DNA from: Pseudomonas sp. GR 6-02
GTDB lineage: Bacteria; Pseudomonadota; Gammaproteobacteria; Pseudomonadales; Pseudomonadaceae
DNA: 64,000 nt
Assembly: GCF_001655615.1 (NCBI RefSeq)
Contig: NZ_CP011567.1
Span: 4,163,001-4,227,000 of the forward strand
Direction: 5' to 3'
Shown: positions 10,272 through 47,751 of the stretch, piece by piece
Layout of the letters: each line of letters begins with the position of its first letter
How positions within the stretch are numbered: the stretch's first letter is position 1
Program-made: the position numbers and the translations under genes
Notes under the pieces: model-generated
Told to the model about the DNA's origin: nothing
The model's input: only the letters and a program-made list of their open reading frames with translations
Databases searched by the model: none

Positions 10272-11137
10272 AAAACCGTCCCCGACTGTTTGGCCACGCG
10301 CCGTGCCAGCAACAGCACCGCCCAGGTGACTGCTCCGAGGATGACCGACAGCGCAGCGGCCACGGTGAAATTGGCGTAGTTGGTGAACACGTTATAGATG
10401 GCCACGGGGGTCACGTTCAGCCGCGTGCCCAAGGTGAACGCAGTGCCGAAAGCGCCCATCGACGTCGCGAAACAAATGGCGCCGCAGGATACTAGCGCGG
10501 GGGCCAACCCCGGCACGATCACGTCGCACACCACCCGCCAATGTCCGGCGCCGAGTGAGTGCGCGGCTTCTTCCAGGCTGCGATCCAGGCTTTCACACGC
10601 GGCCATCACCGTGAGAATCACCCGCGGAATCGAGAAGTACAGATAACCGATGAACAGCCCCGTCAGCGAGTAAGCGAAAATCCAGCGCTCACCCGCCAGC
10701 CCCAGACCGAGCGAGGCGAACAGGCCTTGTCGACCGGCCAGCAGAATCACCAGAAAGCCGACCACCACCCCGGGAAACGCCAGCGGAAACGTCAGCAGCG
10801 CAACTAACGCCGAGCGACCGAAGAACTGCTGGCGAGCGAGAAACACCCCGCTGATGCCACCGACCAACAACGCCGCCAGTGTCACCAACGCCGCAAGGAG
10901 ACAGGTCTGCACCAGGCTGCCAAGGTATTGCGCACTACTGAGCACTTGCCAATAGCCACTGTCGCTGCCCTCGCGCCCCTGCCCACCCAGCACAATCAAA
11001 TGCGCCAGCGGCAACAGCCAGAACGCGAGCAGAACCGCTGCCGCCGGGGCCAGCGCCCAGGCAACCGTTGGTCGCAAGCGCTGCAAAACATCGTGGCGGG
11101 ACGAGACGTCCTGCACGTTGAGCGGCACAGTCGTCAC
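10268..11137 (-). CDS. ABC transporter permease (first subunit)
   Basis: This is an inner-membrane permease of 289 residues, starting with GTG 11137 right at the stop of the binding-protein gene (11138). It has several hydrophobic helices and the EAA loop LEEAAHSLGAGHWRVVCDVIVPGLAPAL. It would pair with the other permease as a heterodimer, as in spermidine/putrescine (PotB/PotC) and 2-aminoethylphosphonate (PhnU/PhnV) type importers. Confidence 0.92.
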   Translation of the reverse strand: MTTVPLNVQDVSSRHDVLQRLRPTVAWALAPAAAVLLAFWLLPLAHLIVLGGQGREGSDSGYWQVLSSAQYLGSLVQTCLLAALVTLAALLVGGISGVFLARQQFFGRSALVALLTFPLAFPGVVVGFLVILLAGRQGLFASLGLGLAGERWIFAYSLTGLFIGYLYFSIPRVILTVMAACESLDRSLEEAAHSLGAGHWRVVCDVIVPGLAPALVSCGAICFATSMGAFGTAFTLGTRLNVTPVAIYNVFTNYANFTVAAALSVILGAVTWAVLLLARRVAKQSGTVL

Positions 11138-12142
11138 TTACTTGACCTCACTCAGATAGCGCGCAGCAAAGGCTTCCTGCACCGCCGCCATTTTTTCGTA
11201 ATCGACCACGCCGGCGCGGGCATAGTCACTGTCCGGAAGGAACTGCGCGGCGACGTCGGCCGGCATCTTCATCTCACGAACCGGACGCAGATATGCCTTG
11301 GCCCACAACGCCTGCCCCTGGTCGGACAGCACAAAATCCAGGACCTTTTCGGCGTTGGCGCGATGCGGTGCATTGTCGACCACGCTCATCACGTAAGGCA
11401 CGCTGATGCTGCCTTCCCTGGGGATCACGAAAGCGACGTTCGCCTTGTCTTTGTAGCGCGCACGGTAAGCGTTGAAGTCGTAGTCGACCAGAATCGGCAG
11501 CTCACCGGAAAGCACCCGCGCATACGCGGTTTGTTTCGGCACGATGGGCGCGTTTTTCGCCAGTTTCTGGAAGTAATCAATGGCCGGCGCGAAGTTATCC
11601 AGGGTCCCGCCCATCGCCTGATTAATGGCGACCGCGGACACGTAACCGACGAATGCACTGGATGGATCGAGGTAGCCGACCATGCCTTTGTACTCAGGCT
11701 TGAGCAGATCAGCCCAGCTCTGCGGCACCGGCAAGCCACCCAGCGCATCGACGTTGACCATGATTCCCAACGTGCCGGAATGAATTGCAAACCAGTGCCC
11801 CTGCGGGTCTTTCAACCCCGTCGGAATCTGCTCCCAGCCTTTGGGCTTATAAGTCCCGACGACTCCGGCTTTTTGTGCCTGTAAACCGAATGTCACGCCG
11901 TAATACACCACGTCCGCCACCGGCGCGGCGTGCTCGGCAACCAACTGCGCCAGAGCCTGGCCAGAGTTTTTATTGTCCAGCGGTACCTGCACACCTGTGG
12001 TGTCGGCAATGGCCTTGAGTTGAGTGCCCCAATCTGCCCATTCCGGTGGACAGTTGTAGCAAATCGCCGTTTCAGCGGCCTGGGCCAGGCTGGCCACACC
12101 GCACAGCCATAACGCAGCCAGGGTTTTAGTGAAGCGGGTCAT
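11138..12142 (-). CDS. ABC transporter periplasmic substrate-binding protein
   Basis: This is a periplasmic binding protein of 334 residues. ATG 12142 is chosen because GAGGAG lies 8-10 bases upstream and the product then begins with a standard signal peptide (MTRFTKTLAALW...) cleaved near AQA-AET. The fold is of the Fe(III)/spermidine/phosphonate group (SBP type 2), with YGVTFGLQAQKAGVV and YLDPSSAFVGYVSA blocks typical of COG1840-like proteins. The phosphodiesterase at the operon end and the LacI regulator at its head suggest an organic phosphate or sugar-phosphate-like ligand. That is inference; ferric iron or polyamine cannot be excluded. Confidence 0.88.
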   Translation of the reverse strand: MTRFTKTLAALWLCGVASLAQAAETAICYNCPPEWADWGTQLKAIADTTGVQVPLDNKNSGQALAQLVAEHAAPVADVVYYGVTFGLQAQKAGVVGTYKPKGWEQIPTGLKDPQGHWFAIHSGTLGIMVNVDALGGLPVPQSWADLLKPEYKGMVGYLDPSSAFVGYVSAVAINQAMGGTLDNFAPAIDYFQKLAKNAPIVPKQTAYARVLSGELPILVDYDFNAYRARYKDKANVAFVIPREGSISVPYVMSVVDNAPHRANAEKVLDFVLSDQGQALWAKAYLRPVREMKMPADVAAQFLPDSDYARAGVVDYEKMAAVQEAFAARYLSEVK

Positions 12143-13145
12143 CGAGTTTCTCCTCGTAGGGTTGAGTACTTTCGCCTGGCCGGACATGGCAAGGCAGGCA
12201 ATGGGAAACCGGGGCAGCGCCAGCAATTTGTGCCAGCAATTGGTCAATGACCGTGCTGGCCAGCGTTGCAATTGGCTGCACCACGCTGCACAGCGTGGGG
12301 TGCATTTGCGTGCCCAGGGCGATACCGTCGAAACCGATCACTGACAGCTGCCCAGGCACATTCCAGCCGTGTCGGCGCAGTTCGGCGATCAGGCTGATCG
12401 CCAGCAAATCGTTGGAACAAACCAACGCGCTGGGCGCCTGTGGTCCGGACAAAAAAGGTTCAAGGGCGGCGAAATCGGCTTGGGTATGGGCGGGCATTTC
12501 GATCACCGGCAAGCTGTCGAGGCCGTGCTCACGCATCGCGTCGCCATAACCGGCGTAACGCAGACGGGCACGGTCAGACTGCAAGGCCGGGCCGGCGACC
12601 ATGCCAATGCGCCGATGCCCAGCGTCCAGCAAATAGCGCGTGGCCAGTGCCATCCCGGCGCGGTTGTCGACCGACACCGCGCTGTAATCGGGATTGCTCG
12701 GTTGGTGATAAGCCAGCACAAACGGCGTGTCCTCGCTGGCGAGGCTTTGCAGCACGCGGTTGCTTTCGGCATCGGTAACGGTCAGCACCAGCCCGTCAAC
12801 CCGCTGGCGCAACAACTCCTCGACCACCGCGCTTTCACGCTCGCTGTTGTAATCGGTGGTCGCCAGCAACAAATTGTAGCCACGCAAACGCGCGGCCCGC
12901 TCCATTGCCTGGAATTGCTCGGCGAACACCGGATTGAGGAGATTGGGGACCACCACCCCGATCAGGTTGGTGGTTTGCAAACGCAGTTGACGGCCGAGGC
13001 GATTGGGCCGAAAACCCAGTTCGCGGGCAGCGGCGAACACTTGCTCGCGGGTCGCCGGACGCACCACTTCAGGGGAGGCGAAGGTCCGCGCGGCAGTCGC
13101 CCGCGATACACCTGCCAGTCGTGCAACTTCTTTCAAATCAGTCAT
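12126..13145 (-). CDS. LacI-family repressor of the ABC/phosphodiesterase operon
   Basis: This LacI/GalR-type regulator of 339 residues starts with the HTH LKEVARLAGVSRATAARTF (residues 3-21), then a hinge helix and a periplasmic-binding-like ligand domain (IGVVVPNLLNPVFAEQF, GYNLLLATTDYN, VIGFDGIALG). It heads the operon and its stop overlaps the binding-protein start region by 17 bases, so it is co-transcribed with the genes it probably controls. A perfect palindrome TGAGATCGATCTCA lies 12-25 bases upstream of its ATG and is the likely operator. Confidence 0.93.
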   Translation of the reverse strand: MTDLKEVARLAGVSRATAARTFASPEVVRPATREQVFAAARELGFRPNRLGRQLRLQTTNLIGVVVPNLLNPVFAEQFQAMERAARLRGYNLLLATTDYNSERESAVVEELLRQRVDGLVLTVTDAESNRVLQSLASEDTPFVLAYHQPSNPDYSAVSVDNRAGMALATRYLLDAGHRRIGMVAGPALQSDRARLRYAGYGDAMREHGLDSLPVIEMPAHTQADFAALEPFLSGPQAPSALVCSNDLLAISLIAELRRHGWNVPGQLSVIGFDGIALGTQMHPTLCSVVQPIATLASTVIDQLLAQIAGAAPVSHCLPCHVRPGESTQPYEEKLDDPLH

Positions 13146-39504: not shown

Positions 39505-40926
39505 ATGAAACCTGACCACCCGTTAAGCGGCGCCGTGGTGCTGCTGTTTGCCGTCGCCTGCGGCCTGGCCGTCGGCAATGTGTATTACGCACAACCATTG
39601 CTCGATGCCATGGCCGAAGCCTTCGCCATGGACCCGGCAACCATCGGTATCATCATCACCCTCACTCAGATCGGTTATGGCGTGGGCCTGTTGTTGCTGG
39701 TCCCTCTGGGGGATCTGCTCAACCGCCGCCGATTGATCGTCTTGCAAACCCTGCTGTCGGCACTGGCCTTGTTGATGATTGCGTTAGCCCCGAGCAGCAC
39801 CTGGCTGTTGCTCGGCATGGCGCTGACCGGGTTACTGGCGGTCGTTACGCAAGTCCTGGTGGCCTACGCCGCGACGCTGGCCATCCCGGCGCAACATGGA
39901 CGTGTGGTAGGCGTGATCACCAGCGGCATTGTCGTCGGCATTCTATTGGCACGAACGGTGGCCGGCGGCATGGCCGACCTGGCTGGTTGGCGTTCGATTT
40001 ATCTGCTGTCCGCCGGGTTGACCCTGGTGATGGCGCTGCTGTTGTTTCGTGTGCTGCCCAGGCACGAAGACGCGCGACCGGATAGCGCTTACGGCGCGTT
40101 GATCGGCTCAGTCTTCACGTTGTTCAAGGAAGAACCCGTGTTGCGTCAACGGGCCATCCTTGCCCTGCTGACGTTCGCCAGTGCCATGGTGCTGTGGACC
40201 CCTTTGGTATTGCCGTTGAGCGCCCCGCCGCTTTCACTGTCCCACACCGAAATCGGACTGTTCGGGCTGGCCGGGGCTGCCGGCGCACTGGCCGCTGCTC
40301 GCGCCGGGCATCTGGCCGATCGTGGCCTGGGTCAATGGACCAGCGGACTGTCGTTGTTGCTGATGCTCGCCTCATGGCTGCCCATCGCCCTCACTCAATC
40401 CTCGCTGTGGGCGCTGCTGCTCGGGGTGATTACGCTGGATCTGGGTTTGCAGGCCGTCCATGTCACCAGCCAGAGCATGATCTACAGCGTGCGCCCCGAA
40501 GCGCAAAGCCGACTCACCGCCGGCTACATGCTGTTCTATTCGATCGGCAGCGCCTTGGGCTCTATCGGTTCGACGGCGATGTATGCCTGGGGCGGCTGGA
40601 TCGCGGTGTGCTGGCTGGGTGCGGGCATCAGCGCCGTAGCGTTGATCTATTGGTGGCTGACGCTCGCCGCCAAAACACCCAACACCTGTGGCAAGCCCCC
40701 TCGCCACAGTTATCGGCAGTCCCCCCGACTCATCCACGGTCCCTGCCCCGCAACATGCTGTCCAGCACCTCATCGCGGCGCACCCAACCGTGAAACAACG
40801 CCGCCGCCAGGTGCAGCAGCACGGTCAGGAACAATAGATACGCCAGATACCTATGTGCCTTGCGCAGGAATGCAAACACCTGCGTATTCGCCGGCAGGAT
40901 CGACGGCAGTTGCAACGAGCTGCTGA
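39505..40926 (+). CDS. MFS transporter with repeat-derived C-terminal extension
   Basis: This is a 12-helix major facilitator exporter of the DHA1/YnfM-like type: GNVYYAQPLLDAMAEAFAM and GYGVGLLLLVPLGDLLNRRRLIV (loop 2-3 motif) near the start. ATG 39505 follows AAGGAA. Helices end near residue 390 (AVALIYWWLTLAAKTPNT). The next 80 residues (Pro, Arg, Thr and Ser rich) look unlike a transporter. They begin exactly where a CTGTGGCAAGCC-type genome repeat enters (40685) and run on antisense through the 3' part of the cytochrome b561 gene. The repeat has probably replaced the ancestral stop. It is likely controlled by the divergent HxlR. Confidence 0.88.
   Translation: MKPDHPLSGAVVLLFAVACGLAVGNVYYAQPLLDAMAEAFAMDPATIGIIITLTQIGYGVGLLLLVPLGDLLNRRRLIVLQTLLSALALLMIALAPSSTWLLLGMALTGLLAVVTQVLVAYAATLAIPAQHGRVVGVITSGIVVGILLARTVAGGMADLAGWRSIYLLSAGLTLVMALLLFRVLPRHEDARPDSAYGALIGSVFTLFKEEPVLRQRAILALLTFASAMVLWTPLVLPLSAPPLSLSHTEIGLFGLAGAAGALAAARAGHLADRGLGQWTSGLSLLLMLASWLPIALTQSSLWALLLGVITLDLGLQAVHVTSQSMIYSVRPEAQSRLTAGYMLFYSIGSALGSIGSTAMYAWGGWIAVCWLGAGISAVALIYWWLTLAAKTPNTCGKPPRHSYRQSPRLIHGPCPATCCPAPHRGAPNRETTPPPGAAARSGTIDTPDTYVPCAGMQTPAYSPAGSTAVATSC
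40685..40710. repeat. Short CTGTGGC...GCCACAG repeat within the MFS reading frame
   Basis: CCTGTGGCAAGCCCCCTCGCCACAGT is a compact member of the R0-like family seen at 23879-24012 and 55408-55506. It sits at the boundary between the true MFS coding part and the odd C-terminal tail. Confidence 0.75.
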
Positions 40927-41275
40927 GCATCACCGGATCGCCAGCCGCCGATATCATCGCCCAGCCCAGCAGCGGCAAAATCAGCATCAAGGCGTACAGC
41001 AAGACATGCGAAGCCTTCGCCGCGAGCACTTGCCAACCCGGCAAGTCCGCCGGCAGCGGTGGTTGCCGGGTCGAAAAACGCACGGCCAGACGCACGACCA
41101 CCAACAGCAGAATGGCGATGCCCAACGGTTTGTGCAGGTGGATCAGCCACTCGTGACGCTCGGACACCGAGGCCACCATGCCGGCGCCGATGAACAGCAT
41201 CGCGATGATCATCAGCGCCATCAGCCAATGCAGCAGCCGCGCCAGGGGAGCGAAATGGTTCGGTTGAGCGCTCAT
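40730..41275 (-). CDS. Cytochrome b561
   Basis: This is a four-helix di-haem b membrane protein of 181 residues. HWLMALMIIAMLFIG (helix 1 with His), LHKPLGIAILLLVVVRL (helix 2 with His), ASHVLLYALMLILPLLGW (helix 3 with His) and KAHRYLAYLLFLTVLLHLAAALFHGW (helix 4 with His residues) give the CybB pattern. It oxidises quinol and can pass electrons to a periplasmic partner. The ATG overlaps the stop of the catalase-like gene upstream, so the two likely form an electron-transfer pair. Its last 197 bases are antisense to the MFS tail. Confidence 0.92.
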   Translation of the reverse strand: MSAQPNHFAPLARLLHWLMALMIIAMLFIGAGMVASVSERHEWLIHLHKPLGIAILLLVVVRLAVRFSTRQPPLPADLPGWQVLAAKASHVLLYALMLILPLLGWAMISAAGDPVMLSSSLQLPSILPANTQVFAFLRKAHRYLAYLLFLTVLLHLAAALFHGWVRRDEVLDSMLRGRDRG

Positions 41276-42363
41276 TGATGAGCCTCCTGCTTGGCGTTGG
41301 GCAACTGATTCACTTCGCTGGTGCGACGCAGATAGGAATTGGCATAGCCCGCTGAACGAGCGGCGAGCAGCGGGTCGTCGGAGCCTTCGATACCGCTGGG
41401 CAATACCAGTGGGTCGTAGTTGATGTCACGGCACTCGCCATTGAGTTGTGGCTGGGTGCTTTCGAGCACCAGAGTGCCGGCGTTCACAACTTTTCGGTCG
41501 CCGGGCCAGGCCTTGCTCGCGTCGTTGACCGGGTCCCCAGGGTTCGCCAGGGTGATGTTCAACTGCCAACGCAGCGGTCCGGCGGACAAACGCTGAACCA
41601 GATCCTTCTCCAGAAAGTCAGCGCCCTCCGGTGCCGTCGCGCCCGCCGCATCCTGAGCAACCGGGGTCATGCTCCAACGCACCGCTTGCCGCTGCCCCGC
41701 TGCGTTCACCAGGTAAAACGCATTGACGCTGTTATACGTCTCGGTCGCATAACTGGCAGAAGGTTTGGCAGTCTTGATCCAGGCAAGAAACGGCGCGGCT
41801 TCCGGGTGAGAACCGAAGAACGCCGGCACTGCCGCAGGATTCGGTTTGCCGGTGGCCGGGTCCGGTGACTGCGCCTGTTGCAGCTGATAGAACGCCTCGG
41901 GCGTGCCCACCGGGAACACCGGCATGCTGTTCATCCCGGTGCGCCACTGCTGACCGTTGGCCTGGGTAAAGCGCAACGCCAGGCTGCGGATCGGCACGCT
42001 GTTGTCCGGTGCGTAAGGGTTGCCGGCAGGCAGCGCGAAACGCCCGACCACCGGGGTCCGCGCTTCATTGAACACTTGGGCGCTGGAATACTCGCGCACC
42101 TGGCCGCTACTCTCGAAATGCCCGATAACGCACACCCCTTTGGCGTGGTTACGACGGAACCCCGGGTGCACGCCGTTGTTTTTCTCCAGCACATTGATCA
42201 ACGCTTTCGGCGTCAGGCGCTGTGGGTCGAGTGTGCCGTTGACGTAGGCAAAAGCCCCGGCCAGCGCGGCGACCACCACGGCAATGCCGGTCAGGCGCAA
42301 CGTCAGGCTCGCGGTGCTCAGGGGCGGCCGAGACGGCCCTGTTGTAGATGAGCGATCAACCAT
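41272..42363 (-). CDS. SrpA-like catalase-related peroxidase
   Basis: This small catalase-fold haem protein has 363 residues. An N-terminal membrane anchor or signal (about 25-46) should put it on the periplasmic side. The distal-His block is GVHPGFRRNHAKGVCVIGHF, followed by RSLALRFTQANGQQWRTGMNSMPVFPVGTPEAFYQL as in SrpA-type catalases. ATG 42363 has GGAG at good distance. Family members are peroxidases rather than true catalases. Co-translation with cytochrome b561 suggests that quinol supplies the electrons for peroxide reduction; that link is inference. Confidence 0.9.
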   Translation of the reverse strand: MVDRSSTTGPSRPPLSTASLTLRLTGIAVVVAALAGAFAYVNGTLDPQRLTPKALINVLEKNNGVHPGFRRNHAKGVCVIGHFESSGQVREYSSAQVFNEARTPVVGRFALPAGNPYAPDNSVPIRSLALRFTQANGQQWRTGMNSMPVFPVGTPEAFYQLQQAQSPDPATGKPNPAAVPAFFGSHPEAAPFLAWIKTAKPSASYATETYNSVNAFYLVNAAGQRQAVRWSMTPVAQDAAGATAPEGADFLEKDLVQRLSAGPLRWQLNITLANPGDPVNDASKAWPGDRKVVNAGTLVLESTQPQLNGECRDINYDPLVLPSGIEGSDDPLLAARSAGYANSYLRRTSEVNQLPNAKQEAHQ

Positions 42364-42485
42364 GAAAGTCTCCGGGGCCATAGGCCACAGGGGGAAAGAG
42401 CTATGAGACGAACGTCACGTAGGATTATTCCCCCTGAACTGTAGTTTCTTTCAAAGCACCGCTAGCGACGAATCCTCAAGGTTGG

Positions 42486-43250
42486 TCAAACCGGGTTAAA
42501 ACTCGGCTCACGCTTCTGCAAAAAAGCCTGCATACCTTCCTGTTGCCCCTGCGTGGCAAACAAACCATGAAACACTCTTCGCTCGAAAAGAAGGCCATCG
42601 CGCAATCCTGACTCCAGTGCCCGGTCCACTGCTTCTCGCGCAGCGAGTGTGGCGGTTTTGGCGAAACCGGCAATGATCTGCGCTGCGGCCAAGGATTGCT
42701 CCAGCAGATCGCTGGCAACGATGACCCGCGACACCAATCCTGCCCGCTCGGCCTCTTCGGCCGACATCGAGCGTCCGGTCAAAATCATGTCCATGGCCTT
42801 CGACTTGCCGATCAGGCGCGTGAGACGTTGGGTCCCGCCCATTCCAGGCATCACCCCCAACCTGATTTCCGGTTGTCCAAAACGAGCGTTATCGGCAGCA
42901 AAGATCAGATCGCACATCATGGCCAACTCACAGCCGCCACCGTATGCATAACCGGCAACAGCGGCCAGCTTGGGCGTACGCAACGCGGCAAAGGCTTCCC
43001 AATCGGCGAAATAATCCTCATGGACCATGTCCAGGTAAGATTTTCCGTACATCTCCTTGATGTCGGCACCCGCCGCAAAAAAATCCGCTGTCCCGGTGAT
43101 CACGAAACAGCCGACTCCGGGGTCGCGGTCCAGCCGTTGCAAGGTGTCCAGCAGTTCGCGCATCAGGGCCGAACTCAAAGCATTCCTGGCCTGCGGCCGA
43201 TTAAGACGAATCAATACGACTCGATCATGACGTTCGATCAATGTGTGCAT
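42486..43250 (-). CDS. Enoyl-CoA hydratase/isomerase family protein
   Basis: This crotonase-fold protein has 254 residues. The oxyanion-hole region is [21 protein letters not shown], then [24 protein letters not shown] (Glu of GGGCELA, one catalytic Glu) and [25 protein letters not shown] (second catalytic Glu region), so both hydratase glutamates appear present. It is 57 bases downstream of the membrane oxidoreductase and on the same strand as the adenylation gene. This suggests one operon of three genes. The substrate is unknown. Confidence 0.88.
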
Positions 43251-43307
43251 GGTGATCTCATTAAATAGATGTGAAATGTTTGAATGAAAAAACGCTCTTG
43301 GCACACT

Positions 43308-44642
43308 TCAGGAATCCCAGATTGCGCCATACGCCGGAATGCCCCGCCCCTCCATTTCCTCAACCACTCGCTGGGTGAGCGTCTGGTTCGAAATGCAGAT
43401 CACCGCCTCGGCACCGAACGAGCAAACCGCGTCATAAGCCAGTTGCACAAGGTCTGGCTTGCCGAGCACATCGGTGTCCCAGATCAAGGCATCAGGATTG
43501 GCCCGCAGGATCTCTTCCACCAGTTCGTCACCGTAGGTTTTTCGCGGGCTGCGGGTCGACCAGACCAGCCGTATCGGTACTTGCCTGGCCAACAAATGGG
43601 GCAACACCGGGCCGATGCCGCTGCCCGTGGCGATGTACACCACCGATTTGAACAGGGTTTCGATGTGCGCCACGCCAGCGGTGGTAATGCCTTTGACCCA
43701 GACATGCGTCGGCATTTGCTCGATGAACTCGCCGGTCCAATCACCTGCCCGGGAAATGATCAGGCGAAAACCCGCTTCACCCGGTGCGGGAATATTGGCA
43801 AAGGAATGCCACTCCATCAGCGGGTTGAGACTGATGGCGTTGGAGGAGCCGGCAAACGGCGTGACATGGTCAAAACGGGCTATTACCGCATGAGAAGAAG
43901 GCCTGATCAGTTGCACCGGCACTTTGCGCAGACGAAACCATGGCAAGGCGATGCTGAACGTCAGCACAATCAGCATCCAGAATGCCACCGACGTCGACAG
44001 CGCCTCGCTCACGGAGGCCTGCGGGTTCTGGTCCCGGGTAAACAGAACGCTCCATACCCAGAACAGGGCAAGTGCGGTCCACCCACCAAAGCGGTGCATT
44101 CGCTCGAAGCCGTTGTGAAAACGCCCGCGAATCCGCGGGTGAGCCATGACGGCCACCAGCAGCAAGATCCCCAGCAACCCGGCGCTCACCCCGAGCAGCG
44201 CCAGGGAAACGCCGCCCAAGCTTTCAGTCCAATGCCAGGCCAGGGAGCCGATCAACACCGCGAACCAGCCAATCGCCGCCAGCGCCCCGCCACTGTGCAA
44301 GCCGCCAAAGTGGTAAACCTTGGCCAGTGAGCGGCGTATCGCAAGCGGCCAGGAAGTGGGCGCCCGGGTTGCCAGCCAGAACAGCAGATTGATGATGTAT
44401 TGCTGGCGAATCAAAATCGCCAGCGACAGATTCGCCACCACCAATCCCGACAGCGCCTCAAGGACTATCCCCGTGGATGTCCACCACTGCCCGGCGGTCA
44501 ACCCATGCGCCAGTGCCGCGATATTGAATGCAAGCACCAGCGCTACGAGGCGGTTGTAATGCGAAAATATCGGCAACGTCCCCAATCGCCGCCACAGCAC
44601 GCGCTTGACCGGCAGCGCGGTATCCGGATTCCCCCCCTTCAT
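43308..44642 (-). CDS. Membrane-bound NAD-binding oxidoreductase (TmpA/TmpL-like)
   Basis: This integral-membrane protein has 444 residues. The first 260 hold about six or seven hydrophobic helices with several His (HYNRLVALVLAFNIAALAHG, KVYHFGGLHSGGAL, MHRFGGWTALALFW). A cytosolic ferredoxin-reductase-like part follows, with a WHSFANIP segment resembling the FAD-contact H-P-F-T of ferric reductases and SVVYIATGSGIGPVLPHLL as the NAD(P) site (about 340-345). The closest architecture I recall is fungal TmpA, and the C-terminal part of TmpL. ATG 44642 overlaps the adenylation gene stop in an ATGA junction, so the two are co-translated. The reaction is not known. Confidence 0.75.
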   Translation of the reverse strand: MKGGNPDTALPVKRVLWRRLGTLPIFSHYNRLVALVLAFNIAALAHGLTAGQWWTSTGIVLEALSGLVVANLSLAILIRQQYIINLLFWLATRAPTSWPLAIRRSLAKVYHFGGLHSGGALAAIGWFAVLIGSLAWHWTESLGGVSLALLGVSAGLLGILLLVAVMAHPRIRGRFHNGFERMHRFGGWTALALFWVWSVLFTRDQNPQASVSEALSTSVAFWMLIVLTFSIALPWFRLRKVPVQLIRPSSHAVIARFDHVTPFAGSSNAISLNPLMEWHSFANIPAPGEAGFRLIISRAGDWTGEFIEQMPTHVWVKGITTAGVAHIETLFKSVVYIATGSGIGPVLPHLLARQVPIRLVWSTRSPRKTYGDELVEEILRANPDALIWDTDVLGKPDLVQLAYDAVCSFGAEAVICISNQTLTQRVVEEMEGRGIPAYGAIWDS

Positions 44643-46237
44643 GCGCCCACCCCTTGCCGGGTCGTCGCGTCGGCCTGGTGCGTCATCGCCCACTCCAGCA
44701 GCAAGCGTTTGTCGACCTTGCCGCGTGAGGTCAGCGGAATGTGCTCCACGGCGAGGATCAGCGAAGGGACGCAATAGTAGGCAAGCCGCTCTTCACAGCG
44801 CCGTCTTGCATCATCGATGTCCGTGGTAACGGGATAGACGAAGGCCACCAGATGGCGACTGTCGAGTTTCAACGTGACCGCCCGCTCGCAGCGATCAGAT
44901 GACTCCAGAGCCGCAGAAACAGAGTCGAGCTCCACCCGAAACCCTCTGACCTTGACCTGATCATCGACACGTCCCAGGTGTTCAAGTTCGCCGTTCACTG
45001 TCCAGCGCCCCAGATCACGTGTGCGAAACATCATCCGGCCCTGCCCCAGAAACGGATCGGGCCGATAGCGTTCGGCGGTCAGCGTCGGGTTACTCAAATA
45101 ACCGGCGGTCACACAGTCGCCGCCAGCCCACATCTCACCTTGCTCACCCGCCTGACAGAGCTGGCCCGCCTCATCCAGCACGTACACCGTGTTGTTGGGC
45201 GTGGGTTTGCCGATCGTCAATGCACCTGCGCCCCTGTAATGCTGCATGGTGTTGACGATCGTGGTTTCGGTCGGGCCGCAGGCATTGTAAAAAGTGCAGA
45301 ACGAGGACCAGCGATCAGCCAGGGGCTGAGGGCAAGGCTCCCCGGCAAGGGCCACGACCTTGACTTGCTGACAACGCAATGGATCGAGTGTGCCGAGTAT
45401 CGAAGGTGTAGCGATCAGCACATCGCATTGTTCAGCAGTCTGGGCGATGTCCTTGCCACGGATCATCAAGGTCGCACCATGAGCCAGACACCCGAGTATT
45501 TCCCAGGCCGCCATGTCAAAGGCGATGTTAAGTATCTGTCCGACCTTGAGCCCAGGCCGCATGCCGAGATTGCCAGGGGCTGTCAGCAATATATTGCACA
45601 CATTGCGGTGGGTCACCCGAACCCCATTGGGCAGGCCGGTGGTGCCGGAGGTAAACAGCACGAAACACAACCGGTCCGGGGTCGATGACAGCGAACAGGC
45701 CACATTCAGGTCATCAGCGGGTGTTGACGCAACCGCCATGAACTCATCGAGGCAAATGCAGTGTTGCTGCGACGTCAGGGGAATTCGCGACTCGAGGCTC
45801 GACAGTGTCAGCACCACCCGCGTCGAGGCCACGTCCATGATGTGGCGCAATTGCGCGGTGGGAGTAATCCCTACGTGCTGAGGGATGTAGGCAGCACCCA
45901 CTTTCAATGCGGCCAACATTCCCGCCAGCATCGGGATCGAACGCTCCACAAACAAGGCCACGTGATCGCCCGGGGCGACGCCCTGCTGACGCAACAGCGT
46001 GGCCAGTCGGTTGGCCTGCCGGTTCAGTTCACCGTAGGTGATGGCTTCGCCCTCACAATGGGCGGCAATGTCCTGAGGTCTGGCGGCGGCTTGCGCCTCG
46101 ATGGCGTGATGGATCAGAAGATACTCAGGCTCAACCGTCGGCCCACGACCGAACTGCGGCCACACGTCATGGGTGTTGTTGTCCGGAAGCAGCGAACACA
46201 TCGATGCCGACTCAAGGGAAATTTTGCACTCTTGCAT
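44639..46237 (-). CDS. Stand-alone amino-acid adenylation protein (NRPS-like)
   Basis: This protein of 532 residues matches a nonribosomal-peptide adenylation domain. A3 is FTSGTTGLPNG (with Asn204 where Lys is usual), A4 is NIAFDMAAWEILGCLAHGA with Asp241 that normally binds the substrate amino group, A5 is YNACGPTETTIVNT, A7 is MMFRTRDLGRW, A8 is GRVDDQVKVRGFRVEL, and A10 is SRGKVDKRLL with the catalytic Lys. There is no carrier domain after it; the protein ends 25-30 residues past A10. It should activate an amino acid or similar amine acid as adenylate. Next comes a membrane oxidoreductase in a 4-base overlap, the order of domains in fungal TmpL. Confidence 0.82.
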   Translation of the reverse strand: MQECKISLESASMCSLLPDNNTHDVWPQFGRGPTVEPEYLLIHHAIEAQAAARPQDIAAHCEGEAITYGELNRQANRLATLLRQQGVAPGDHVALFVERSIPMLAGMLAALKVGAAYIPQHVGITPTAQLRHIMDVASTRVVLTLSSLESRIPLTSQQHCICLDEFMAVASTPADDLNVACSLSSTPDRLCFVLFTSGTTGLPNGVRVTHRNVCNILLTAPGNLGMRPGLKVGQILNIAFDMAAWEILGCLAHGATLMIRGKDIAQTAEQCDVLIATPSILGTLDPLRCQQVKVVALAGEPCPQPLADRWSSFCTFYNACGPTETTIVNTMQHYRGAGALTIGKPTPNNTVYVLDEAGQLCQAGEQGEMWAGGDCVTAGYLSNPTLTAERYRPDPFLGQGRMMFRTRDLGRWTVNGELEHLGRVDDQVKVRGFRVELDSVSAALESSDRCERAVTLKLDSRHLVAFVYPVTTDIDDARRRCEERLAYYCVPSLILAVEHIPLTSRGKVDKRLLLEWAMTHQADATTRQGVGA

Positions 46238-46495
46238 GTTAAAAATTCTCTTCAGGCTCAATATTTACGTTCAAGCACGGGTGGTTCTGCGCAGCCTGGT
46301 GAGAGGCTGGGCTGACTGCCTGAGCTTGCTGCATGGGTTGAGCCGCGAAGTTCGATGCCATTACATGGATTACAAACCCCTCAGAAATCTCCTACACAAA
46401 TAAGTAATGGTTTTCCCCGACGAAGGAATAAACCACAGTGGCCGGCGTCCTTCTTGTCAGTGCCATTCATCACAGCCAGAGAACACGCCATTTCC

Positions 46496-47002
46496 ATGAA
46501 CAACATCGACGGACAATTGCGTGAAATCATTCCCAGGCTGCGGCGCTTCGCCGTATCGTTGACGCGCAACCCCAGCAGCGCCGACGATCTGGTGCAGGCA
46601 AGCCTGGAACGAGCGCTGTCGAATTGGAGCGCTAAACGTCCGGAGGGCGACCTGCGGGCCTGGCTGTTTTCGATTCTTTATCGGCAGTTTCTCGACGCCC
46701 ACCGCCGCTCCCGGCGGTATGCGCGGATGCTCGAATTCTTTACCGGGCGCGACGATGCGCAGCCTTCGGTAGAACGCACGGTAATCGCCCAATCGACCCT
46801 GCAAGCCTTCGATCAGCTCAGCACCGAACAGCGCGCACTGCTGCTCTGGGTGTCGGTCGAAGGCATGAGTTACAAGGAGGTCGCCGAGATTCTCGACGTC
46901 CCCATCGGCACCGTGATGTCACGCCTGTCCCGCGCGCGTCAGGCCTTGCGCCAGCTCAGTGACGGCGAAATCACCCGCCCTTCCCTGCGGAGACTCAAAT
47001 GA
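46496..47002 (+). CDS. ECF-type RNA polymerase sigma factor
   Basis: This sigma factor has 168 residues. Region 2 is LREIIPRLRRFAVSLTRNPSSADDLVQASLERAL and continues to the DLRAWLFSILYRQFLDAHRR segment; region 4 is LSTEQRALLLWVSVEGMSYKEVAEILDVPIGTVMSRLSRARQAL. ATG 46496 is used since the family begins a few residues before region 2. Its stop overlaps the start of the anti-sigma gene in an ATGA junction. Its promoter targets are unknown; the divergent adenylation gene is one possibility. Confidence 0.92.
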   Translation: MNNIDGQLREIIPRLRRFAVSLTRNPSSADDLVQASLERALSNWSAKRPEGDLRAWLFSILYRQFLDAHRRSRRYARMLEFFTGRDDAQPSVERTVIAQSTLQAFDQLSTEQRALLLWVSVEGMSYKEVAEILDVPIGTVMSRLSRARQALRQLSDGEITRPSLRRLK

Positions 47003-47751
47003 TCAGCCTGCCTCCCAACGAGCGTGACCTGCACGCCTACGTCGATCACCAACTCAGCGATGCCGACCGACATCAAGTGGAAATTTATCTGGCCGGCAAC
47101 GCCGAAGTGGCCGCACAAGTACGCGCCTGGCAGCAAGACGCCCAGCAATTGCGCGCAGCCCTGAGCGGCGCCTTGCAGCAACCGGCCAACCCGCAACTTG
47201 ACCCGGCGCTGATTCGCCAGCGCCTCAAACGCCAGTCTCGCCGTCATCTGGCCAGTGCCGCGATGTTGTTGATTGCGGTCAGCGTCGGCGGATTGGGCGG
47301 TTGGCACGCGCGGGAGATGACTCTGGTCAGCCCCCCACTGCCGATGGCCGATGCGATGCAGGCCTACCGACTGATTGCTCAGCAAGGCATGCTGCCGGCG
47401 GATTACCAAGTCAGCGACGATGGCGATATGCAAGGCTGGCTCGACCGCTATTTCAGCCAGGCCCATCGCCTGCCGAACTTGGCGGGGGCAGGCTACAAAC
47501 CGGTCAGCGGCCGTTTGCTCAGTACCGAACAAGGGCCGGCGGCGATGGTGGTTTACGAAGATCAGGGCGGCCACAAAGTCAGCTTCTACGTCCGGCCACC
47601 GGGGCCGAAAAACTTCCTCCTGCCCCGCGGCAGCCGCAGCGACGGCGAACTGCAGGCCGAGTATTGGTCGGATGCCGGGTACAACTACGCGATGGTCAGC
47701 CCGAGTGACACACCGGCGGCGCAGATACTCAAGCAGACACTGAAGTTCTGA
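46999..47751 (+). CDS. Membrane anti-sigma factor
   Basis: This protein of 250 residues is translationally coupled to the ECF sigma gene. The cytoplasmic N-terminal domain (ERDLHAYVDHQLSDADRHQVEIYLAGNAEVAAQVRAW) is the usual anti-sigma helical domain but lacks the H-x3-C-x2-C zinc motif. One membrane segment lies at about 84-101 (HLASAAMLLIAVSVGGLGGW), followed by a periplasmic domain of about 145 residues. It should hold the sigma factor at the membrane and release it upon an envelope signal. Confidence 0.88.
   Translation: MISLPPNERDLHAYVDHQLSDADRHQVEIYLAGNAEVAAQVRAWQQDAQQLRAALSGALQQPANPQLDPALIRQRLKRQSRRHLASAAMLLIAVSVGGLGGWHAREMTLVSPPLPMADAMQAYRLIAQQGMLPADYQVSDDGDMQGWLDRYFSQAHRLPNLAGAGYKPVSGRLLSTEQGPAAMVVYEDQGGHKVSFYVRPPGPKNFLLPRGSRSDGELQAEYWSDAGYNYAMVSPSDTPAAQILKQTLKF

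Follow-up and report, generated by a model that had tools for sequence, protein, structure and literature searches.

The stretch of DNA analysed here (64,000 nucleotides from Pseudomonas sp. GR 6-02, referred to as the window) carries three genes on its minus strand, which we designated ADEN, MEMB and ECH. The three reading frames proposed in the initial annotation were all confirmed in their places and on this strand, and the GSGIGP site it had pointed out was present in MEMB. The genes of the operon and the features around them are as follows.

40730-41275, minus strand: cytochrome b561, on the other flank of the insertion site from the sigma factor gene.
41272-42381, minus strand: catalase-like gene, on the same flank as cytochrome b561.
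42486-43250, minus strand: ECH, an operon-specific enoyl-CoA hydratase of 254 aa with catalytic Glu 108 and 128 both kept.
43308-44642, minus strand: MEMB, 444 aa, a six-helix membrane protein with a C-terminal FAD/NAD(P)-type domain, of the PF26733 family and with a predicted NADPH-oxidase fold.
44639-46237, minus strand: ADEN, a stand-alone NRPS-type adenylation protein of 532 aa with the pocket DMWIAAAIVK and without a carrier domain, the orthologue of Sare0718.
46238-46403, minus strand: stretch of 166 bases upstream of ADEN, absent from the empty-site sequence, likely to hold the operon's own promoter.
46355-47002, plus strand: ECF sigma factor, flank of the insertion site.
46999-47751, plus strand: anti-sigma-like gene, on the same flank as the sigma factor gene and outside the system.

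The TmpL-type parts, which the annotation had described as lying here in two co-translated genes, are indeed found as two overlapping genes, ADEN and MEMB, the overlap being four bases (ATGA). In 23 of 26 same-genus genomes with a catalase-like gene of at least 47% identity, the ECF gene lay directly beside it and no operon was present; L092-L095, with catalase identities of 27-35%, were left out of this empty-site count. The Pseudomonas operon is a rare cassette between the ECF sigma gene and the catalase-like gene. The ECF sigma factor, catalase and cytochrome b561 were ruled out as parts of the system by the operon-free sites, and also by the different neighbours of the operons in the other taxa scanned. 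In the 166 bases upstream of ADEN, GGAAT was absent on the ADEN strand, and the promoter scan returned 2 sites against 1.5 expected.

Conservation of the gene set and its relation to fungal NPS12 proteins

Among 38 loci picked for holding MEMB, some of which may come from near-identical genomes, ADEN was directly upstream of MEMB in all 38 and ECH directly downstream in 34, and the gene arrangement is thus not due to chance; short matches in G014, G497 and G876 (E 3e-4 to 1e-3) were left out of the counts. All three genes were also present in 15 of 18 further loci. The adenylation (A) domain and the membrane part were fused in 13 of the 38 bacterial loci, with the split form found elsewhere, including in the window. 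Aquimarina has a natural fused homologue. Distances of the three proteins over 20 loci gave Mantel r values of 0.91, 0.81 and 0.88, with 0 of 2000 permutations as high, and in these protein comparisons the hydratase clade was shown to be inherited with the operon. The conservation of the three genes together, which the annotation had set as a test of its proposal, held in scattered bacteria far outside Pseudomonas, although no Burkholderia, the second genus it had named, appeared among the organism names in the matches listed, many of which bore no name.

Salinispora arenicola carries the three genes in the order seen in the window (Sare0718-0717-0716), with identities over the matched stretch of 60% for ADEN, 57% for MEMB and 67% for ECH. 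This is our locus L196, with the gene order ADEN-MEMB-ECH; both primers printed in PMC3360062 match it without mismatch and its ADEN gene is 1671 bp, as printed. A phosphopantetheinyl transferase gene, printed for sare0719 in the same paper, lies upstream of the Salinispora operon, unlike the window. The annotation had not recognised a bacterial pathway of this form, which overlooked that the Salinispora adenylation protein was assayed in 2012 (PMC3360062); in the consulted text of that paper the membrane neighbour is named a hypothetical protein, and the operon is not tied to TmpL. Among the matches listed in a literature search, no paper joined the bacterial membrane gene to TmpL.

NPS12 proteins with the same Pfam pair (PF00501 and PF26733) made up 71 rows, 69 of them fungal-named and 2 without a name. 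The membrane halves of one fused bacterial protein and of fungal proteins shared 45-50% identity. GDWT occurred in 71/71 and GSGIGP in 70/71 NPS12 rows, the latter also in 230 of 240 bacterial proteins. RLHFD, printed as the FAD motif of TmpL, was found in none of the 240 bacterial proteins and in just 5 of the 71 NPS12 rows, and with such rarity among NPS12 proteins too it does not mark the group. In the membrane tree, in which three lone membrane genes carry the label 'split', 18 fungal rows formed one clade (100/100) and the branch between bacteria and fungi was weak (88/52); in the A-domain tree (SH-aLRT only), the bacterial and fungal groups were sister clades relative to 16 NRPS A domains. 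Judged by sequence, fungal NPS12 proteins have one half homologous to ADEN and the other to MEMB, and the TmpL likeness that the annotation had proposed is borne out through this NPS12 homology. The tie to TmpL and TmpB runs via NPS12-named proteins and via papers that place both in the NPS12 group, not via the TmpL and TmpB sequences themselves.

Like the window, the fungal NPS12 group, to which TmpL of Alternaria and A. fumigatus and TmpB of A. nidulans belong, combines a carrier-free A domain, a six-helix membrane part and a GSGIGP-bearing FAD/NAD(P) part, with the same Pfam pair and pocket code, and an enoyl-CoA hydratase/isomerase gene is printed as adjoining A. nidulans tmpB (PMC4804170). 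Stand-alone bacterial A domains have been placed inside the NPS12 clade (PMC2823734). Whereas fungal TmpL holds both halves in one chain, the window has two overlapping genes in a bacterial host. Fungal TmpA, as described in papers, lacks an A domain, consisting of the membrane and FAD/NAD(P) part, and has as its partner a separate adenylate enzyme, AfeA, reported as coumarate-ligase-like, in contrast to the NRPS-type ADEN.

Properties of the adenylation, membrane and hydratase proteins

In profile searches ADEN matched PF00501 (E 1.9e-66), and it scored 328.1 bits against the NCBIfam amino-acid adenylation model TIGR01733, for which the cut-off is 317.4. The pocket DMW[IV]AAxI[VI]K was found in 126 of 143 bacterial A-domain rows, which include overlapping loci from one genome, and in 70 of 71 NPS12 rows; it was shared by 0/16 control NRPS A domains. 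Sare0718, whose 10-residue pocket code is identical to that of ADEN, is reported to activate L-alanine in vitro with a Km of 0.116 mM and a kcat of 12.6 per min (PMC3360062). The predicted substrate of ADEN is L-alanine or a close analogue, and the retention of the pocket from Bacteroidota to mushrooms suggests one substrate in common. ADEN departs from the classical NRPS trait of a carrier in the protein or adjoining it, and has no condensation domain either. In keeping with the annotation's description, no carrier motif was detected in the window, the 38 related loci, 311 related proteins or the 18 further loci; as a positive control, 16 ordinary NRPS loci were scanned for the same motif, and 12 contained it.

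The PF26733 label of MEMB is taken from database annotation and not from a profile scan. Its structure model has six helices and, by structural match, an NADPH-oxidase fold. The ferric reductase/NOX profiles PF01794, PF08022 and PF08030 gave no match to MEMB of the window and matched 4, 1 and 2 of 45 MEMB members weakly (best E 0.015). By sequence, solved structures gave chance-level matches only, and SpNOX and NOX2 shared 12-13% identity with MEMB with no sequence-level match. Membership of a well-characterised reductase family, which the annotation had named as a test of its reading, was thus not seen by sequence, the likeness being one of modelled fold. Four His residues were kept among the 45 members (H111 and H176 in 45/45, H116 in 44/45 and H183 in 40/45). 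GDWT, HPF and the His spacing are NOX residues; at the outer-heme spacing of NOX, MEMB has no His, and it may have room for one inner heme. Not every MEMB is paired with an A domain: some are lone genes and others are fused to a cyclic-nucleotide-binding domain (10 rows in one PF26733 clade, 100/100), so MEMB has other uses. The 33 pattern matches in viral contigs included no relative, and for the five plasmid MEMB records, four neighbourhoods of which were opened, no A domain was annotated beside MEMB in the PLSDB gene table, which is incomplete.

ECH matched PF00378 in a profile search (E 4.6e-72), scored 382.9 bits against PRK05862, just below the cut-off of 396, and had EchA8 as its best solved-structure match. 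It shares the fold family and both Glu residues with short-chain enoyl-CoA hydratases of this type, but stands in an operon clade of its own, which held 21 of 22 operon hydratases in the tree, that of L033 lying outside. Both catalytic Glu were present in 50/50 operon hydratases. ECH was missing from the operon in 4 of the 38 loci (L016, L028, L058 and L061); at the cut-off used, the L016 and L061 genomes had a housekeeping-type hydratase only and the L058 genome had none. ECH may thus be dispensable, which counts against the explanation that we favour below. One hydratase of this clade that is encoded outside the operon lies in a gene cluster of the valine-degradation type.

Proposed function and alternative explanations

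We propose, with moderate confidence, that the fungal NPS12/TmpL-type system has in these three genes its split bacterial counterpart, and that they make a small amino-acid-derived product. The predicted role of ADEN is activation of L-alanine or a close analogue without a carrier, and with no carrier found the adenylate would pass to CoA or another small thiol. MEMB, going by its predicted fold, would pass electrons from NAD(P)H through a flavin and would alter the activated amino acid's redox state, and ECH would likely act on the resulting thioester, adding water or some other nucleophile across a C=C bond. The operon likely yields a small alanine-derived product, which would leave the cell and may act as a signal. 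The interpretation given in the annotation is, as a whole, partly supported. Papers on fungi describe some species as depending on TmpL to keep their redox balance and to form spores normally, report, for the species studied, that TmpL and TmpB affect sporulation and infection as well as redox balance, and assign an extracellular sporulation signal to the related AfeA-TmpA pathway. Three further points count against our explanation: the NADPH-oxidase fold usually reduces whereas the substrate called for by a hydratase step is an oxidised one, MEMB is also found without an A domain, and the ECH of L033 falls outside the clade.

In the bacterial operon the soluble and membrane parts are encoded by separate genes, each of which could be expressed on its own, and the hydratase joins the set. 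Going by the Salinispora enzyme, alanine is the first substrate to try, and since one pocket is kept from Bacteroidota to mushrooms, a tractable bacterium could serve to find the product. Valine breakdown runs from isobutyryl through methacrylyl to 3-hydroxyisobutyryl. A more specific proposal, which we consider quite unlikely, copies this route step by step with NH2 replacing CH3, and is in line with the clade member in the valine-type cluster mentioned above: the NADPH-oxidase-fold protein would be a biosynthetic enzyme that turns an alanyl thioester, at the membrane, into its dehydroalanyl (2-aminoacrylyl) equivalent, to which the hydratase would add water or some other nucleophile. If true, it would give a single signal chemistry common to bacteria and fungi.

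Alternatively, MEMB could chiefly serve redox output, generating a redox signal as an NAD(P)H oxidase or reductase, with ADEN as an amino-acid sensor or gate and not a biosynthetic enzyme. Lone MEMB genes exist, and in one PF26733 clade the cyclic-nucleotide-binding domain replaces the A domain, as a regulatory input would; loss of TmpL is reported to raise ROS in two fungi (PMC2766074), and both in Pseudomonas and in L059 the operon has catalase-type genes as neighbours. The Pseudomonas catalase-like neighbour, however, belongs to the insertion site only. A dedicated hydratase clade, of which a sensor has no need, travels with ADEN and MEMB, the catalytic Lys of ADEN is kept in 143/143 bacterial and 71/71 NPS12 rows, and the Salinispora enzyme is reported to turn over (PMC3360062), all of which makes a chiefly redox role unlikely.

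We consider it very unlikely that an amino aldehyde, formed by MEMB through reduction of the alanyl adenylate or thioester, goes on to condense into a pyrazine-type compound, with the hydratase in a side reaction. NAD(P)H is the usual electron donor for the fold of MEMB, fusion of the A domain with the reductase is seen in the 13 bacterial loci and in fungal NPS12, and other types of adenylate-forming reductases are known in fungi; yet the known ones, as indicated in PMC9605436, rely on a carrier and have another kind of reductase domain, and the co-inherited hydratase is left unexplained. It is highly improbable that ADEN is an accessory enzyme of a different NRPS pathway, loading a carrier protein whose gene lies elsewhere in the genome. 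Ordinary NRPS genes are present in the host genome, and L196, L197 and L198 have, upstream on the same strand, a gene for a 4'-phosphopantetheinyl transferase. Transferase homologues were nevertheless found by tblastn, used because motif scans were insensitive and had missed three true genes, in just 3 of 22 actinomycete loci and in 0/45 other sequences including the window. No carrier motif occurred across 56 loci, and the fusion or overlap of ADEN with MEMB points instead to a direct hand-over.

The operon and its distribution

The operon lies in a 6.5 Mb, single-contig genome, and its nearest named relatives are Pseudomonas loci. As the initial annotation had observed, a stand-alone adenylation protein (ADEN), a membrane oxidoreductase (MEMB) and an enoyl-CoA hydratase (ECH) are encoded together, and their coordinates and four-base overlap were confirmed:

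44639-46237, minus strand: ADEN, above the amino-acid adenylation cut-off
43308-44642, minus strand: MEMB, sharing ATGA with ADEN
42486-43250, minus strand: ECH, an enoyl-CoA hydratase by profile

MEMB had no family match in the local Pfam copy; its relatives carry the label PF26733 in a large protein database, and no paper turned up in a text search on that number.

Scanning genome contigs yielded at least 29 loci, including Pseudomonas, Aliikangiella, Marinibactrum, Streptomyces, Aquimarina and a related flavobacterium, Splendidivirga, a Bacteriovoracaceae and an Anaerolineae MAG, and nine further loci completed a set of 38. In this set, chosen for holding MEMB and possibly including near-identical genomes, ADEN was directly upstream of MEMB in 38/38 loci and ECH directly downstream in 34/38 (the operons at L016, L028, L058 and L061 having no ECH), with ADEN and MEMB fused into one chain in 13 and split in 25. 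The full set was present in 15 of 18 more loci from one actinomycete family, the remaining three (L199-L201) having MEMB alone of the three. Distances for ADEN, MEMB and ECH were correlated across 20 loci (Mantel r 0.91, 0.81 and 0.88).

The MEMB family is rare in its own genus, with clear matches in 3/36 genomes, in 2/21 other genomes of the order and in 4/398 of Pseudomonadota (genomes G000 and G050 among them). It is also rare in Actinomycetota (3/296 genomes) and Bacteroidota (2/247), seed genomes counted in, and is frequent within genome G662's actinomycete family (38/300). Actinomycete G1030 has two overlapping MEMB matches in different frames (C1:1615777-1617068), perhaps a frameshift or sequencing error. 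Lone MEMB-like genes without an annotated A domain alongside were seen on a Pantoea piersonii plasmid (L062 8001-9281, 48% identity) and on cyanobacterial plasmids (L063-L065, about 31%).

Kinship with fungal NPS12 proteins

With the membrane half of a fused bacterial protein as query, at least 71 additional proteins were retrieved: 69 bear fungal names, most often 'nonribosomal peptide synthetase 12', and two are unnamed. They are 45-50% identical and have the same Pfam pair. Among the matches listed, GDWT was present in 71/71 NPS12 rows and GSGIGP in 70/71, and RLHFD in only 5/71. The likeness to TmpL proposed earlier was borne out at the sequence level, the link being these NPS12-named proteins and the placement of TmpL and TmpB in the NPS12 group in papers including PMC4804170, in the part consulted. 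In an A-domain tree with 16 ordinary NRPS A domains as outgroup, the 37 bacterial and 16 fungal rows formed sister clades, and in the membrane-half tree 18 fungal rows formed one clade (100/100). The latter tree required 10 changes of the fused label, at least five forced by strong branches, and 10 of the split label, at least six so forced. Judged by sequence, the system is a bacterial, split form of the fungal NPS12/TmpL kind, with a dedicated hydratase and with a substrate candidate.

Pocket, hydratase and candidate pathway

Pocket residues were mapped to PheA positions by motif spacing, using the PheA numbering, which agrees with the TmpB residues in PMC4804170. The window ADEN code is DMWIAAAIVK. 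Positions 235, 239, 301, 330 and 517 were invariant in 143 bacterial rows and position 236 was M in 142; DMW[IV]AAxI[VI]K was found in 126/143 bacterial rows, in 70/71 NPS12 rows among the matches listed and in 0/16 control NRPS A domains. For the Salinispora orthologue Sare0718, the sections seen of PMC3360062 describe alanine-dependent adenylation. Both primers of that paper match locus L196 without mismatch; its 1671-base ADEN gene is followed by MEMB and then ECH, 57% and 67% identical, respectively, to their window counterparts. With MEMB in place at a locus carrying these primers, position and homology make sare0717 most likely the membrane partner of Sare0718. A 4'-phosphopantetheinyl transferase homologue lies upstream on the same strand at L196 (3982-4911), L197 (9773-10519) and L198 (10478-11173).

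The catalytic Glu pair was present in 50/50 operon hydratases, and 21/22 fell, across three phyla, into one clade (100/97), outside which lies the host's second hydratase (54%). Two non-operon rows fell inside it. One is L101, from elsewhere in the Anaerolineae MAG that contains L028; the other is L113, whose neighbourhood encodes an acyl-CoA dehydrogenase together with a 3-hydroxyisobutyryl-CoA hydrolase (the latter above cut-off), a combination known from valine breakdown. At the Bacteriovoracaceae locus L033 (9303-10070), the hydratase in the ECH place is 33% identical and outside the clade, perhaps a replacement. An enoyl-CoA hydratase/isomerase gene also lies beside A. nidulans tmpB, as one of the neighbours conserved in several Aspergilli, according to the portion seen of PMC4804170.

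From gene set, homology, pocket and hydratase clade, the following pathway seems likely. ADEN would form an alanyl or similar adenylate; this may pass to a small thiol such as CoA, or directly to MEMB, a transfer proposed because no carrier motif was found, despite the transferase upstream in three loci. MEMB would shuttle electrons among NAD(P)H, flavin and the activated amino acid, and ECH would act on the resulting unsaturated thioester. By analogy with the related AfeA-TmpA pathway, which yields an extracellular sporulation signal (PMC4804170, in the part seen), the product may exit the cell. The redox direction is the weakest step, because a hydratase needs an oxidised substrate and reduction is the usual activity of the predicted MEMB fold. 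In the main rival reading, ADEN would act as sensor for MEMB, which would serve as a redox output. This reading is favoured by several proteins (among P0198-P0240, about 540-700 aa) in which the PF26733 membrane protein is fused to a cyclic-nucleotide-binding domain (PF00027) instead of an A domain, 10 such rows forming one clade (100/100) in the membrane-half tree; we nevertheless consider this rival unlikely.

Neighbourhood and insertion site

Genes for two-component systems or histidine kinases lie next to the operon at L056, L057, L059, L184, L192 and L194, loci spread over several phyla, which hints at regulation by an external signal. DUF6733 is encoded by a fourth gene after ECH in 13 Bacteroidota loci of one cluster, of which L015 and L017 were scanned, and at L057:

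L015 10279-11007, L017 10268-11014, L057 6041-6754: DUF6733 (PF20507), after ECH
L014 10291-10935 (Aliikangiella): Gcw_chp protein (PF09694), after ECH

In the window, the operon is placed within the divergent promoter region of an ECF sigma gene and a catalase-like gene. The two genes are directly opposite in 23 of the 26 same-genus genomes having the latter, and the operon lies between them in three, the window's included; as the pair is mostly operon-free, the redox neighbourhood is here a landing site. Alignment to empty sites put the joints of the insert near 42450 and 46404, and GGAATAA-type elements are retained to either side of it (42382-42450 and 46404-46499). At L059, a full catalase gene (10624-12159; PF00199 with PF06628) and then an ankyrin-repeat gene adjoin the operon divergently.
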